Of a stretch of DNA of 64,000 bases, positions 10,072-44,100 are shown piece after piece; positions within the stretch are counted from its first letter, which is position 1, and each line of letters starts with the position of its first letter. The stretch lies in contig JAICXY010000003.1 in the NCBI GenBank assembly GCA_025934495.1, positions 1 through 64,000 of the forward strand, in the 5' to 3' direction. Under the pieces are notes generated by a model. The model did no database searches and was not told the DNA's origin. It saw only the letters and a program-made list of their open reading frames with translations. This DNA is from Candidatus Nitrosocosmicus sp. Lineage in GTDB: Archaea > Thermoproteota > Nitrososphaeria > Nitrososphaerales > Nitrososphaeraceae. Both the position numbers and the translations under genes were made by a program.

Positions 10072-10587
10072 ATGCTATCACCGACCAAATCCAAATTGGT
10101 TAATCTATACAAAAAAGAAAATGATCCAAAAGTAAAGGAAAGGTTACTGCTAATTATCAAAGTACAAGAAGATGGACAAATTCCTTTTCGTGTTGTAAAA
10201 GAGATGCATCGAAGTAATCCCTGGGCTTCCGATTGGTTAAAAAGATATGATAGGGAAGGCTTGAAAGGACTAAAAGATAGGACAAAAACCGGTAGACCAC
10301 CTGAGATGTCCGAAGAGATTAGTTTGAGTATAAAGAAAGAATTATCCAACTCTAATCAAGGTTGGACAACCAAACAGGTGGAAGAGTTAATCATAAAGAA
10401 AAGTGGAATAAAATATCACTATACCCACATATATCGTATCCTTCGAAAATGGGGATTTAAACAAAAGGTTCCAAGAAAGGTACATGTTAATACTGCATCA
10501 CCAGAGGAAAAAGAGGCTTTCAAAAAAAGGTTGCCCAAATACTTGTGGATATGCAGCAGCAGCAGCAGGAAGATAGATTTACCATAG
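10072..10587 (+). CDS. IS630 transposase, N-terminal part (DNA-binding)
   Basis: This frame of 171 residues carries the paired winged-helix/HTH region that binds transposon ends: a first HTH at about residues 15-60 (including MHRSNPWASDWLKRYDREG) and a second at 75-145 ending in the linker VPRKVHVNTASPEEKEAFKKR. The frame then meets A7 and runs into chance sequence (a Cys and Ser run from the CAG repeat) before a stop. Reading -1 from the A7 run joins it exactly to the catalytic half, giving a normal IS630 protein of about 335 residues. The last 20 or so residues are therefore out of frame. Confidence 0.75.
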   Translation: MLSPTKSKLVNLYKKENDPKVKERLLLIIKVQEDGQIPFRVVKEMHRSNPWASDWLKRYDREGLKGLKDRTKTGRPPEMSEEISLSIKKELSNSNQGWTTKQVEELIIKKSGIKYHYTHIYRILRKWGFKQKVPRKVHVNTASPEEKEAFKKRLPKYLWICSSSSRKIDLP

Positions 10588-11087
10588 TATCACTGGACGA
10601 ATCATTCTTTTTTTACGATTCTCTGGTAAGACGCGTTTGGATTAATGAAAATAAAAGACCGATTGTCAGAGTAACAGGTTCACATCAGCATTCATGTATT
10701 TTTGGTTCCACAAGTATGGAAGGAAAACAAATATTCAGACAGTATGACAAATTCAATGGCGATACATTCCTTGATTATCTAAAGAAAATACATGCTAAAT
10801 TCCCACAATGCTATTTGTTCATGGATAAAGCATCGCCTCATTACAAATCAAAGAAGGTGTTAAAGTACTTTGAAGAAAATAAAGATACGCTAATTCCACT
10901 ATATCTTCCAACTGCATCACCAGAGTTTATGGTAATAGAGGAAGTTTGGAACATGACCAAACGTGATCTACTTATTCTACAATATTATCAATCATTTGCA
11001 GATTTGAAGAATAAGATTTCTAAATATTTCAGAACAAAACGATTCAATCTTGATATGAGGAACTATTTGTTACGAGATGTAATTTAG
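10545..11087 (+). CDS. IS630 transposase, catalytic DDE part
   Basis: This is the DDE_3 catalytic half. Its three acidic motifs are visible: SLDESFFFYD (first Asp), FMDKASPHYKS (second Asp) and LPTASPEFMVIEEVW (Glu). The apparent ATG at 10545 lies in the sequence read after a -1 shift, so this is probably not a separate protein but the second half of a frameshifted transposase. A five-unit CAG repeat encodes QQQQQ near the junction. All catalytic residues are intact, so the element could be active if the shift occurs. Confidence 0.75.
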   Translation: MDMQQQQQEDRFTIVSLDESFFFYDSLVRRVWINENKRPIVRVTGSHQHSCIFGSTSMEGKQIFRQYDKFNGDTFLDYLKKIHAKFPQCYLFMDKASPHYKSKKVLKYFEENKDTLIPLYLPTASPEFMVIEEVWNMTKRDLLILQYYQSFADLKNKISKYFRTKRFNLDMRNYLLRDVI

Positions 11088-23111: not shown

Positions 23112-24296
23112 CTATTTATTATTTTTAATCAGTTTTTGCATAGTGTATCCTCCTATAAATGCAGAAAATAAAGAAATAGGAACAACAATAGGTAGAATGA
23201 TTGGAAATAGGATCTGTAGTAGAAATTCCTCTGTTCTAATATCACTTGATGGTTTAAAAAATCCACCGAAAATATCTGCAGTCCATGGAAAGAAAATAAT
23301 AATAAAAAATAAAGAAAGTAGCATCGAAGTAAACATATATCTTTTTCCATGATCGATAGAATTATTTATAGTACCAATTTTGTGATCATATTTTAAAAGA
23401 ATAATGTCTGCAGCAATTGCAGGCAATATATTTAATAGATAAAATGGAAATAGTCCCATAAAATACGAATTGGATATAATTGTAGCACTTGCTTGTATAG
23501 CAATAATTACAGCAGTTATTGAGGTAAAAATAAAAGGTATTTTAGAAGAATAAGATACCGCTGTTAAGCAAAGACTAATAATAAAAGGAATAAGAATAAT
23601 CGCCGCAAATATTGCAGTAAATGGTTCAGGATTAAAATCAAAATACTGTCCTTTTGAGAAAGGAAGAGTAAACAAAAGTATCATACCTACTGCAACCATT
23701 AGAAAGATTCCACATGATGTTACAAAACATGCCCTGGTAACAAAAGATAAAGAATTGGTTTTATAATGTCTATAAATTCCTATTAAACCACCTAAAGCTA
23801 TAAAAAGCATACCTGTTGCGAGTATAGAATGAGGCGGACTCATTAATCCATCAAATCCAAATTTAGTATGCCACCAAAAATCAAACGGTCCAGCAGTTAT
23901 TTGCAATATTTCTCCAATAATGGAGAGTTTGATGGGAAAAGGCAATACTTGAGATGAATTTGAAATATTTTGCATTAATAGCCTCAAATTGTTTTGATAT
24001 AGTTTTACGCGTGGGAAAAATAGTATTCGTAAAATTGTACTAATAATAGACAAAGCTACTCCACCATAAATTACAGTATGAGGCGGCGTTAAGAAGGATT
24101 CTACATTCTTGCTCCCGTGCCAAACAATATCCCAATTGGCACCACCTATCTGCATACCCACTCCAATACTTATAAGAAAATAAAGTAGCAATGAAGTTGG
24201 AAAAGATTTTGTTATAGTTGGGAAATCCATTTTTGGCATGAAATAATAAATATTTGAATGTCTATCTTCTAATTTATTTGTATTTTTACTAATCAT
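23112..24296 (-). CDS. Polytopic membrane protein with conserved Trp/His motifs
   Basis: A 394-residue integral membrane protein with about ten hydrophobic helices. Two repeat-like motifs stand out: NWDIVWHGS followed about 13 residues later by PPHTVIY, and then DFWWHTKFG followed by SPPHSIL. The repeated pattern W-(D/W)-x-W-H and PPH suggests two halves that place His residues near the membrane surface, as for metal or heme contact. I know similar 'WDxxWH...PPH' proteins only as uncharacterised. A start at Met22 (after MP in YYFMPKMDFP) is also possible. It stands alone. Confidence 0.7.
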   Translation of the reverse strand: MISKNTNKLEDRHSNIYYFMPKMDFPTITKSFPTSLLLYFLISIGVGMQIGGANWDIVWHGSKNVESFLTPPHTVIYGGVALSIISTILRILFFPRVKLYQNNLRLLMQNISNSSQVLPFPIKLSIIGEILQITAGPFDFWWHTKFGFDGLMSPPHSILATGMLFIALGGLIGIYRHYKTNSLSFVTRACFVTSCGIFLMVAVGMILLFTLPFSKGQYFDFNPEPFTAIFAAIILIPFIISLCLTAVSYSSKIPFIFTSITAVIIAIQASATIISNSYFMGLFPFYLLNILPAIAADIILLKYDHKIGTINNSIDHGKRYMFTSMLLSLFFIIIFFPWTADIFGGFFKPSSDIRTEEFLLQILFPIILPIVVPISLFSAFIGGYTMQKLIKNNK

Positions 24297-31299: not shown

Positions 31300-32205
31300 T
31301 TATTGACGCTCCAATGCATATCGATCCCATTTGGCATATATAGCCTCTGCATCATAGGTGCTCTGTAGGAAAGAAAGCAGGACCTCATCAGGTGATTTTG
31401 CATTACGAACCACATCATATGGCAGTACAAACTCGCCTAAATCTTTCTGGTAGAATGCTTCCGGTGGTTGTACCGAGTAGTCCTTGAATCCTTTTGGTTC
31501 AGGGTAGGCATAAGCGTAGAAAACAGGTCTATCCACTGGACCACCACCTGGCCAAAAACCGCAACTACTCAATTCGTGTGAATATGCATCTACCATGACA
31601 AAACGGCCGCAGTTTGGTACACCGGGATGAGGTGGTGCTTTACGTCCGGAAAAACGAGTGGCGGCTAGATCAAAAGCTCCCCAGAAAAAATGCACAGGAC
31701 TCGCTTTGCCTATGAACCTTGAACGGAACAATGTAAACACCCGACTGGTCTGAATTAGAATACGCCAAAACCGTTGTGTGTATTCTGGATCATAGGATGC
31801 ATGTTTATAATCTTCTTCAAAGGGAGTCCGATCCGACACTTCTACAGGAGTAGTCCAAATAGTTATAGGCATGTCAAGCGATCTCAACGCTGCCATTGTT
31901 TCTTGATAAAACTCAGAGACAGAGCAAGGTCGGAGGGATATTGTTCTGGTAGAGCCATCAGTCGTTTCAATGATTAGCCGGTGAGCAATGAAATCAAAGT
32001 CAATCTGCAAATGCCGATTATTATAGGGCATAGCAGATGTCGTTATTCCACGGGATGTAACGTAAAATGTAGTATTCCACCAATGATTTATAGGTGGAGA
32101 AAGGGCAAGCCGGATTTTACCAATGATTTGGGTCCACCTATGTAGTGTATCATACGTATCTTTCCAGGCTGTAAATGGCAGTTCTGGCCAAAGGTCAGTA
32201 GTCAA
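31300..32205 (-). CDS. DUF5996 family protein, probably acquired from bacteria
   Basis: A 301-residue soluble protein. It opens WPELPFTAWKDTYDTLHRWT and contains SPPINHWWNTTFYVTSRG, CSVSEFYQETMAAL, VHFFWGAFDLAATRFSGR and SCGFWPGGG, all as in DUF5996, a family known mostly from bacteria and of unknown function. The conserved Trp, His and Arg residues suggest a small-molecule-binding site. The gene is visibly richer in GC than its neighbours and uses more CG-containing codons, which points to fairly recent transfer. It stands alone beside IS relics. Confidence 0.85.
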   Translation of the reverse strand: MTTDLWPELPFTAWKDTYDTLHRWTQIIGKIRLALSPPINHWWNTTFYVTSRGITTSAMPYNNRHLQIDFDFIAHRLIIETTDGSTRTISLRPCSVSEFYQETMAALRSLDMPITIWTTPVEVSDRTPFEEDYKHASYDPEYTQRFWRILIQTSRVFTLFRSRFIGKASPVHFFWGAFDLAATRFSGRKAPPHPGVPNCGRFVMVDAYSHELSSCGFWPGGGPVDRPVFYAYAYPEPKGFKDYSVQPPEAFYQKDLGEFVLPYDVVRNAKSPDEVLLSFLQSTYDAEAIYAKWDRYALERQ

Positions 32206-37317: not shown

Positions 37318-37994
37318 CTTAAGAAAACGCTATAGCTGAAAAATTGTTATACCATATATTGAAATATCAAAGAAAGAGAACCAATCCTAAAGATATTGCT
37401 TATTCTTTGTATCTCTATTTTCTTGATGGTCTTTCCTATAGAAATACAGCAAAAGCATTACAAGGGTTTGTTCGCAGAAGCCATATATCAATATGGAAAT
37501 GGATTTAGAAATACAGACCAAAGAAACTTTTAACCAAGAGAAAAAAGATTGATGAATTTATTATAGATGAAACATTGATTAGAATTGGTTCTCAATATGT
37601 CTGGTTGTGGGTTGCAATTGAACCAAAGAATAAGCAAATCCTTCATATGGATATATCCTTTGATCAAACAATGCTTATTGTAGCTGAGCATTTTATTGCA
37701 TCACTGATAAATATCTATGGCAAGTACCCTGTCTCAACAGACGATGGAACTTGGTATCCACCGCAAGCATGTAAGTTTTTAAAACAAAGACATCATCTCC
37801 ATTCTACTTATGAGAAAAGCATCATAGAGAGAGCGAGAGCGAGAACGAGCAATCCAATACATCAAGGAAAGAACTGAAGGGTTTGACGATTACTTTCCAG
37901 GTAGAATAAAGAAATGTAAATTAAAACATGTAAGTAAGTGGTTTAATCTTTTCACCGATCAACACAATAAACAGATAATGCGTTAAGTTAACAG
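37308..37994 (+). mobile_element. Decayed IS6-type element at the end of hemD
   Basis: The transposase reads LYLYFLDGLSYRNTAKAL, then an in-frame stop, then IDEFIIDETLIRIGSQYVWL, STDDGTWYPPQACKFL and, after a shift near 37850, GFDDYFPGRIKKCKLK. The first two Asp positions of the DDE triad are visible. The ends are CTGTTAACTTAAG (37311-37323) and its inverse at 37982-37994. The stop TAA of hemD lies in the left end. The right end runs straight into an inverted IS630 fragment. Confidence 0.75.
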
Positions 37995-38055
37995 TCATGT
38001 AAACACATGGATACTTTCTTCTTGTAAACTAATACTGCTTGTTTTAGCAACATAA
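37986..38055 (-). mobile_element. Inverted 3'-terminal fragment of an IS630-type element
   Basis: Read on the minus strand this stretch gives AKTSSISLQEESIHVFT and a stop, then the terminal GTTAAC. That is the same as the C-terminus and right end of the IS630-type copy just downstream (AKTSIIILHEEGIHKFT, 39110-39180). So two IS630-type copies lay in opposite orientation and only about 70 bases of this one remain. The junction with the preceding IS6-type copy falls in the shared sequence TTAACAG. Confidence 0.6.
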
Positions 38056-39180
38056 TACATTTAGCTCACTTCTATTTGAATTATCATTGTGAGGGACACC
38101 TTCCTCAGAATGCTTACCACATATGAAAGGAACTATTTGCATCTAATGCTTGATGAGGATACGGAAGCAGGATATAGAGCCAAGATTATCCTACTCAAAA
38201 ATGATGGATACACAGTTCCTGAAATAAGAAGAACGACTAATCATCATGATAGCAACATAAGAAAATGGATACATCGTTTTAATGAGAAAGGATTGGATGG
38301 AATAGTCTCAAAAATACACGAGCACAAACCAATCAAAATAACCAATGATATAGAAAAAAGGATTGTTGAAATAGTAACTAGTAATCCAAGAACTGATTAT
38401 GGACTATCATTTTCAACATGGTCATTGCGTGTATTGGCGGGATTCATTACAAAGGAGATAAATATGGTCGAAAGTATAAGCCATACTCAAATTAGAAATA
38501 TCATTCTAAAGCATGGTATCAAATGGAGAAATTCTAAAATAACTTTGGGAACCAGCCTGGACCCAGAATATCATTTGAAAAAAAGAGAATCGAAGAATTA
38601 AGATATAATCTGCCTGCTAACTCAATCCTAGTTTATGAGGATGAAAAGGGACCAATAGTAGCAAAAACATATGGGGGAGCCTCATGGTCCTTAATTCAAT
38701 TCAAAATATCCAAAGCTCAAAAGATAAGCGGAATTTTGAATGTATTTGGTGCTTATGACCATACAAATAACCAAATGTTTACTCATGGTTACAAAAAGAA
38801 AACAGGAAAACAGTTTTTGGATTTTATAAAAAGAGTGGACCAAAAATATGATTCCAATGTAAAGCAGATATTTTTGATACTGGATAACATTTCGATACAC
38901 AAATCCAACAAAGTAAAATAAACGATGGCCAAACAATACCCAAGAATACATCTAGTATTTCTTCCAACTAGATCTCCTGAATAAAACCTAATTGAAGTCA
39001 GATGGTCATTGATGCATAGACAAGCCATAAACAATTCCACATTTTTAAACGAACAAGATATCGGTAAAGCCGTATCTGGTTGGACAATTGATTATAACAA
39101 AAAACATACAGCCAAAACAAGCATAATTATTTTACATGAAGAAGGCATCCATAAGTTTACGTAACTGTTAACAGAGCCGA
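38056..39180 (+). mobile_element. IS630-type element with disrupted transposase
   Basis: An N-terminal frame at 38089-38601 (GTG start) has the HTH part (GYTVPEIRRTTNHHDSNIRK) and a second helical domain. The catalytic half follows in another frame from about 38580: LVYEDEKGPIVAKTYGG (first acidic motif), FLILDNISIHKS (second) and LPTRSPE with a stop inside, then LIEVRW. The right end at 39166-39179 is GTTAACAGAGCC. At least one shift and two stops make it inactive. It differs clearly from the IS630 copy at 9975-11109. Confidence 0.75.
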
Positions 39181-43203: not shown

Positions 43204-44085
43204 TTATTTATTTTGAAAATGATAATCGGGTTTATCCATATCATGTTTTAAATCATTCATAGTAGAATACTCCTTCTCTTCTGATATTGATAATTCATTT
43301 CCTCGCCTATTACGAGTAACAAATCCATATCCAAAACTGGACCCGATTATTACTAATGCCAAAACAGGTCCTGTCATCGGAGGTAAAATCTTTGCACCAG
43401 TTATTATTTCATAAGATGTAAGAGCTGCAACTGTCATAGCTGCCCCACTCAAAGCATATGACATATATCTAAAACCTTTTTTATCAAATATTTTATGAAA
43501 TGCCGATCTTAAAATAACACTATCTAGAGTATCAACAGGTATCATACCTAAAGCAAAAAATCCTGCTAAAATTAATGCCACCTGTACTCCAAGTGTTGCT
43601 GAAGCTACAGCTGATAATGTAAGAGCAGAAATCTGAGTAGCAGTATCAAATCCAAGACCAAATACCATGCCAGTAATCAGTGAAGACCAAAATGGTCCTA
43701 ATATACCTGTTTTAGTAGATACTTTACCTGCAAGAATAGCAGAGCCTGTTTTTCCCCATTTTTTCATCGAATAAAGGTTAATTGCACCTATTGTAGCTAA
43801 AGCAATAGTTCCAATAACTCCTCCCCAAAGAGAAAGCTCGTCAACTTTACTGCTAGTAGCACTACCTATTACATATATTATTAAAAGCATTTCAGCTAGC
43901 ACAGATATCATATGTCCTAAACTAAATCCTGTGCCAACCCATCGAGATCTTTTTTTAGCATTGTGAAGTCTAACAAGGTTATCAATTGCAGTAATATGAT
44001 CAACATCAAGTGCATGACGCATTCCAAGCATTAACATTGAAGGAATAGATAATACTAGAAATGACTTTATATCTACTACTACCAA
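43204..44085 (-). CDS. NiCoT-family nickel/cobalt permease
   Basis: A membrane permease of about 293 residues and eight helices that imports Ni2+ or Co2+. The family signature RHALDVDHITAIDN lies in the second helix region, followed by GTGFSLGHMISVL and the other conserved segment LGFDTATQI. The open frame begins at TTG 44100, but GGAGGT (44098-44093) stands 7 bases before another TTG at 44085, so I place the start there. Nickel would supply urease or hydrogenase-type enzymes, and cobalt would supply B12, which these archaea make; sequence alone does not decide the metal. The last 35 residues form a polar cytosolic tail. Confidence 0.88.
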   Translation of the reverse strand: MVVVDIKSFLVLSIPSMLMLGMRHALDVDHITAIDNLVRLHNAKKRSRWVGTGFSLGHMISVLAEMLLIIYVIGSATSSKVDELSLWGGVIGTIALATIGAINLYSMKKWGKTGSAILAGKVSTKTGILGPFWSSLITGMVFGLGFDTATQISALTLSAVASATLGVQVALILAGFFALGMIPVDTLDSVILRSAFHKIFDKKGFRYMSYALSGAAMTVAALTSYEIITGAKILPPMTGPVLALVIIGSSFGYGFVTRNRRGNELSISEEKEYSTMNDLKHDMDKPDYHFQNK

Positions 44086-44092
44086 TTTATTT

Positions 44093-44098
44093 ACCTCC
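44093..44098 (-). promoter_or_regulatory. Shine-Dalgarno sequence of the NiCoT gene
   Basis: GGAGGT on the minus strand, 7 bases before TTG 44085. A strong ribosome site is unusual in this window and argues against the upstream TTG at 44100, whose own codons contain it. Confidence 0.6.
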
Positions 44099-44100
44099 AA

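Follow-up and report, generated by a model that had tools for sequence, protein, structure and literature searches.

What is the job of a membrane protein with a two-fold pattern of Trp-His and Pro-Pro-His pairs in the genome of an ammonia-oxidising soil archaeon of the family Nitrososphaeraceae? The protein is encoded in the window, the whole 64,000-nucleotide stretch of DNA analysed here (positions 1-64,000, forward strand, of contig JAICXY010000003.1, assembly GCA_025934495.1, Candidatus Nitrosocosmicus sp.). The original prediction, made from the letters and a list of reading frames, had described a ten-helix protein whose motif pairs might be metal or heme ligands. By the open reading frame list and translation, a 394-amino-acid (aa) frame with an ATG start lies on the minus strand, and both of the motifs quoted in that prediction are present in it. 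Its features are:

23112..24296, minus strand: whole gene, encoding a 394-aa membrane protein, a putative stand-alone AmoC/PmoC relative (reading frame and translation, homologues, relation to AmoC)
23631..24215, minus strand: core, residues 28-222, five long predicted helices common to AmoC and to 200-aa Nitrosopumilaceae proteins (A3 alignment, AlphaFold2)
24078..24131, minus strand: motif 1, D56-x3-H60-x12-H73, with the spacing of PmoC CuC, D156/H160/H173 (invariant in 51 sequences; PmoC ligands from PMC12576850)
23829..23882, minus strand: motif 2, D139-x3-H143-x12-H156, aligned with PmoC CuD, N227/H231/H245, with Asp for Asn (invariant in 51 sequences; AmoC alignment)
23622..23666, minus strand: conserved loop LPFSxGxYFxFNPxP, residues 211-225, placed by prediction on the His-loop side of the membrane (conservation; charge-count topology)
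23115..23630, minus strand: C-terminal half, residues 223-394, further predicted helices absent from AmoC and the 200-aa relatives (AlphaFold2 secondary structure; lengths of relatives)

A single-sequence search with the 394-aa protein found no match in Pfam, NCBIfam or PDB, and its best PHROGs match was at chance level (E 0.18). The gene is single-copy in its assembly. A viral origin was rejected, with no phage match and no confirmed viral contig. Foldseek against a viral library gave no informative match. AlphaFold2 modelled the whole protein with a pLDDT of 81, a pTM of 0.84 and about 10-11 membrane helices, and the core alone with a pLDDT of 88 and a pTM of 0.86. In the models, H60 lies where helix 1 ends and H73 where helix 2 begins; H143 and H156 have the same places on helices 3 and 4. 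By charge count, Lys and Arg are concentrated at the C-terminus and in the loops on the side opposite the His loops; from this distribution, both His loops and the LPFS...FNPxP loop are predicted to lie outside the cytoplasm, and are probably extracytoplasmic.

Alignment of 51 archaeal sequences revealed that D56, H60 and H73 of the first motif and D139, H143 and H156 of the second were invariant, as were W55, W142, D149 and G150. Loss of the His residues among relatives was one part of the outcome that the original prediction had named as counting against it; all four were invariant. Its wording of the motif stood less well. W59, the first Trp-His Trp, is not conserved, the conserved Trp being W55, which adjoins D56, and the Pro-Pro preceding each His is common, not invariant. 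Because the Asp and His residues are invariant in these 51 sequences, the repeat is better written as D-x3-H-x12-H, twice. HHalign matched hairpin 1 to hairpin 2 with a probability of 97.5% (E 6e-12), and none of nine control window pairs exceeded 3.1%. Thus, the two-fold pattern is beyond chance.

Relatives were found in 62 of the 70 Nitrososphaeraceae genomes, often as several paralogues. Nitrosopumilaceae encode 200-aa proteins (L063-L071) with the core, the two motifs and the full set of six ligand-type residues; these differ in being without the C-terminal half and without Pro-Pro-His in motif 2 (mostly WSH). Actinobacterial hypothetical proteins of ~480 aa (e.g., WP_138230750.1, WP_185279132.1 and WP_212728630.1) share the homologous core and the repeat, scoring 44-67 bits with the archaeal profiles and 97.3% by HHalign for hairpin 1 against hairpin 2. 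They are distinguished by an AmoC-like R-D kept after the first His, by a C-terminal extracytoplasmic domain starting AHDPGQG and by a position mostly beside copper genes. This domain (A-H-D-P-G-Q-G; e.g., L113:6917-8362) is reminiscent of near-N-terminal-His copper domains and has no Pfam family. Deep archaeal relatives of 300-320 aa (L074, L075 and L076, from G140, G239 and G285), outside the ammonia oxidisers, carry an AmoC-type N-E-x-x-H in motif 2.

The likeness of the motif spacing to the CuC and CuD sites of PmoC was noticed first, and AmoC searches were run afterwards as a test of it. The CuC site comprises Asp156, His160 and His173 and the CuD site Asn227, His231 and His245, with spacings of 4/13 and 4/14 (PMC12576850). 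In the AmoC of the window's own genome, these positions correspond to D41/H45/H58 and N113/H117/H130, a spacing of 4/13 twice. The separation between motif 1 and motif 2 is 71 in the actinobacterial relatives, 71 in PmoC and 72 in AmoC. Profiles A1, A2 and A3 were built from 18, 51 and 56 relatives, with no AmoC included. When searched against 177,635 PDB sequences, each profile ranked the same three AmoC chains first (best E 0.007, 0.001 and 0.0015, respectively), and a phmmer search of PDB with one actinobacterial relative (E up to 10) returned six chains, every one from AmoC or PmoC, the best at E 0.22. Archaeal AmoC scored up to 35 bits with A1 (E 7e-8 at PDB database size), and 454 reversed or shuffled AmoC control sequences scored at most 7.5 bits. 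Among 2,631 open reading frames, the matches of A2 and A3 at E up to 10 were confined to the family, its actinobacterial and deep archaeal relatives, and AmoC. AmoC aligned with profile positions 5-140 of 182, with the core in register.

Profile-profile comparison by HHalign with an AmoC/PmoC (CuMMO-C) alignment gave probabilities of 92% for the archaeal core, 95% when actinobacteria were added and 87% for actinobacteria alone, as compared with at most 68%, 32% and 4%, respectively, for block-shuffled AmoC controls and less than 1% for a reversed control. Hairpin 1 gave most of this signal (85-93%); hairpin 2 alone was in register and not significant (2.5%). Foldseek searches with the whole and core models, run without a positive control, placed no PmoC or AmoC among the best 50 PDB matches, none of which had an E below 0.001. 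No archaeal family protein matched above the PF04896 or TIGR03078 cut-off, and an actinobacterial relative scored 13.6 bits against Pfam AmoC (cut-off 26.7). In a tree with long branches and an uncertain deep order, AmoC and PmoC formed a supported branch of their own, to which the actinobacterial relatives were closest; the archaeal family lay across the midpoint. As judged from sequence comparison, the 394-aa protein is well supported as a distant stand-alone homologue of AmoC/PmoC, and we infer that the family may share the PmoC fold. The original prediction knew relatives only as uncharacterised, which agrees with the libraries searched, and missed this relation.

Among 398 Thermoproteota genomes, AmoC and the family occurred together in 61, AmoC only in 11, the family only in 4 and neither in 322. 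One of the four family-only genomes carries AmoA, and almost all Thermoproteota with the family are ammonia oxidisers, organisms whose metabolism is copper-based. The phylogenetic profile against amo genes that had been proposed with the original prediction thus finds the family in 61 of the 72 AmoC-bearing genomes, an overlap confounded by descent because nearly all of these genomes fall in one order. Ten of the 11 AmoC-bearing genomes without the family are at least 97% complete. The occurrence of these 11 genomes argues against a family essential to ammonia oxidation, and for the same reason the protein was rejected as the missing archaeal hydroxylamine-oxidising enzyme. Assembly G000 matched AmoC and Monooxygenase_B with no AmoA match, probably an assembly gap. 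The suggestion that the genomes of the closest relatives (G013 and G014) lack amo genes was rejected: they have no AmoC match, but AmoA is present, so they are ammonia oxidisers. A PF04896 match above cut-off (G314:C35:34534-34965) in a Thermoproteota genome outside the known ammonia-oxidiser order, with no archaeal AmoA match, may be contamination.

In the window, the gene stands alone. No amoA- or amoB-like genes were recognised within its 64 kb; in this archaeal family, amo genes are in any case dispersed (PMC10030591). The window also holds a DUF5996 gene that looks recently acquired (31300-32205, minus strand; ~45% GC against a local ~28%), a NicO-type nickel/cobalt transporter, another metal-related gene (43204-44100, minus strand), and transposase-like fragments with helix-turn-helix domains (10072-11087 and 37575-38601). 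Directly upstream of the family gene and on the same strand, 8 of 20 archaeal neighbourhoods have a gene, c1, whose product is a beta-sandwich protein anchored in the membrane and bearing an invariant P-H-x5-H-x-P...D-x-Q-x-E motif; L122 is probably a ninth. The c1 genes are:

L120:5733-6323
L129:6390-6959
L130:6188-6760
L131:7883-8452
L132:6186-6770
L133:7355-7933
L134:7484-8062
L135:6149-6727

In the sample, 20 genomes of ammonia oxidisers carry c1; the window's genome lacks it. Searches with c1 gave no match in Pfam or, at E up to 10, in PDB. c1 is a candidate partner of the AmoC-like protein. Its identification as an AmoB relative was rejected on the PDB result, and its equivalence with the actinobacterial C-terminal domain was unsupported (HHalign 0.2%). 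A TetR regulator adjoins the family gene in three archaeal loci and two Mycolicibacterium plasmids. The conserved neighbours in the 20 archaeal neighbourhoods are the beta-sandwich protein or the TetR regulator, neither of them a known copper gene.

The actinobacterial relatives have other neighbours. In Leifsonia, the relative lies beside a four-helix copper protein, a multicopper oxidase, an HMA-domain protein and heavy-metal P-type ATPases; in Streptomyces F2, beside a multicopper oxidase, a cupredoxin and DUF305; and in S. mirabilis, beside a cupredoxin, an HMA protein and a P-type ATPase. The M. chubuense relative stands beside CopY-type regulator, HMA, TlpA and CcdA proteins, a less strong copper context, and the Rubrobacter locus had no copper-gene neighbours. 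As controls, 49-kb stretches were read from three of these plasmids; apart from a single metal P-type ATPase cluster and a single Nramp gene, they contained little of this kind. This bacterial copper context is a small sample of only about six loci, all on plasmids, which are rich in metal-resistance genes.

On balance, we consider it somewhat probable that the protein is a stand-alone distant AmoC/PmoC homologue with copper handling as its most likely job. The best reading is of a membrane copper-binding protein for which copper handling is more likely than catalysis, and it is favoured because of the bacterial neighbourhoods and the carboxylate in motif 2. The core consists of a helical hairpin in two copies, with one D-x3-H-x12-H per copy, and if PmoC is a guide, the pair would bring two Asp and four His together. 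These residues may form one or two copper sites, CuC- and CuD-like, at the extracytoplasmic membrane edge, and copper bound at the outer membrane face could then be buffered, relayed or detoxified. Copper binding, membrane side and handling role are all inferred. The metal-handling role envisaged by the original prediction is thus supported by AmoC/PmoC homology, motif spacing and the copper-gene neighbourhoods of bacterial relatives; of its metal or heme ligands, the metal alternative gained from the spacing and homology, and heme was left with no heme-family match. Heme A synthase (CtaA) was rejected, with no Pfam match and a weak Foldseek likeness (TM 0.30).

The same ligands could instead serve catalysis. 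A stand-alone copper oxygenase or oxidase would activate O2 at a CuC/CuD-like site with quinol electrons and oxidise a small substrate, subunit B being replaced by c1 in archaea or by the fused C-terminal domain in actinobacteria. In its favour, the ligands and their spacing are almost unchanged, many relatives have a gene directly upstream for a conserved beta-sandwich partner that is membrane-anchored and has invariant His, and the gene adjoins TetR regulators, which often respond to ligands, in Mycolicibacterium and some archaea. Published work places the pMMO reaction at CuD, in subunit C (PMC12576850, PMC11194816). However, the neutral ligand set of CuD has been argued to set the Cu(I) state, which its Asn would favour (PMC11194816), and this Asn is Asp in 51 of 51 sequences. 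Moreover, no PmoA-like partner was seen, c1 is missing from the window's genome, and the bacterial context indicates copper resistance. We regard an oxygenase as rather unlikely.

A site for another metal (e.g., zinc, or a di-metal centre) in a transporter or hydrolase, with the AmoC/PmoC likeness a convergence on a short helix-hairpin motif, is more doubtful still. Such convergence would fit the absence of PmoC from the best 50 Foldseek matches (searched without a positive control) and the non-significant match of hairpin 2 alone, and the 68% reached by block-shuffled AmoC with the archaeal profile indicates that fragments of the motifs account for some of the signal. In contrast, AmoC/PmoC came top in PDB for each of the separate archaeal profiles and for one actinobacterial sequence, the whole core is in register with AmoC, and the actinobacterial motif separation is that of PmoC and within one of AmoC. 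Finally, an assembly or copper-insertion factor or accessory subunit of archaeal AMO is very improbable: 61 of the 65 family-bearing Thermoproteota genomes have an AmoC match and one more has AmoA, but shared descent explains this overlap, nearly complete AmoC-bearing genomes are without the family, the neighbourhoods read show no linkage of its genes with amo genes, AMO proteomics names AmoX, AmoY and AmoZ and not this family (PMC10030591), and the actinobacterial hosts are not known to oxidise ammonia.

A copper-handling homologue of AmoC/PmoC would bear on the origin and active site of AmoC/PmoC, which have been debated for decades. To our knowledge, subunit C was known hitherto only within three-subunit enzymes, and in the open-access literature on stand-alone PmoC- or AmoC-like proteins and on internal duplication of PmoC we found no description of the family. 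We suggest, tentatively and with considerable doubt, that the monooxygenase copper site arose by duplication of a copper-binding hairpin and that the stand-alone family is a surviving relative with the duplication still visible, which may be a one-subunit copper oxygenase. Stand-alone relatives would point to a common ancestry of the monooxygenase site and a copper-handling membrane protein. Since some of these free-standing relatives, with the duplicated ligand set intact, occur in cultivable actinobacteria, a CuC/CuD-type site could be studied as a single protein, and a family found in most ammonia-oxidising archaea gains a testable copper hypothesis.

Among known systems, CopC/CopD of ammonia-oxidising archaea (PMC7785015) resemble the family in the suggested copper-handling role at the outer membrane face; they are a separate family with no sequence match, and the archaeal proteins had no Pfam match to the CopD copper transport family. 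The closest comparison is with AmoC/PmoC (PF04896, TIGR03078). As far as sequence can tell, the 394-aa protein is not an AmoC, because it falls below the Pfam cut-off, has Asp in place of the CuD Asn (Asp139 in all 51 sequences), has no amo genes beside it, belongs to a separate clade and carries an extra C-terminal half; its gene is also stand-alone and its internal repeat still visible. What it shares with AmoC/PmoC is a core of significant homology, the CuC-type D-x3-H-x12-H, a similar motif separation and, in the second motif, the two His in the CuD position (H143 and H156).
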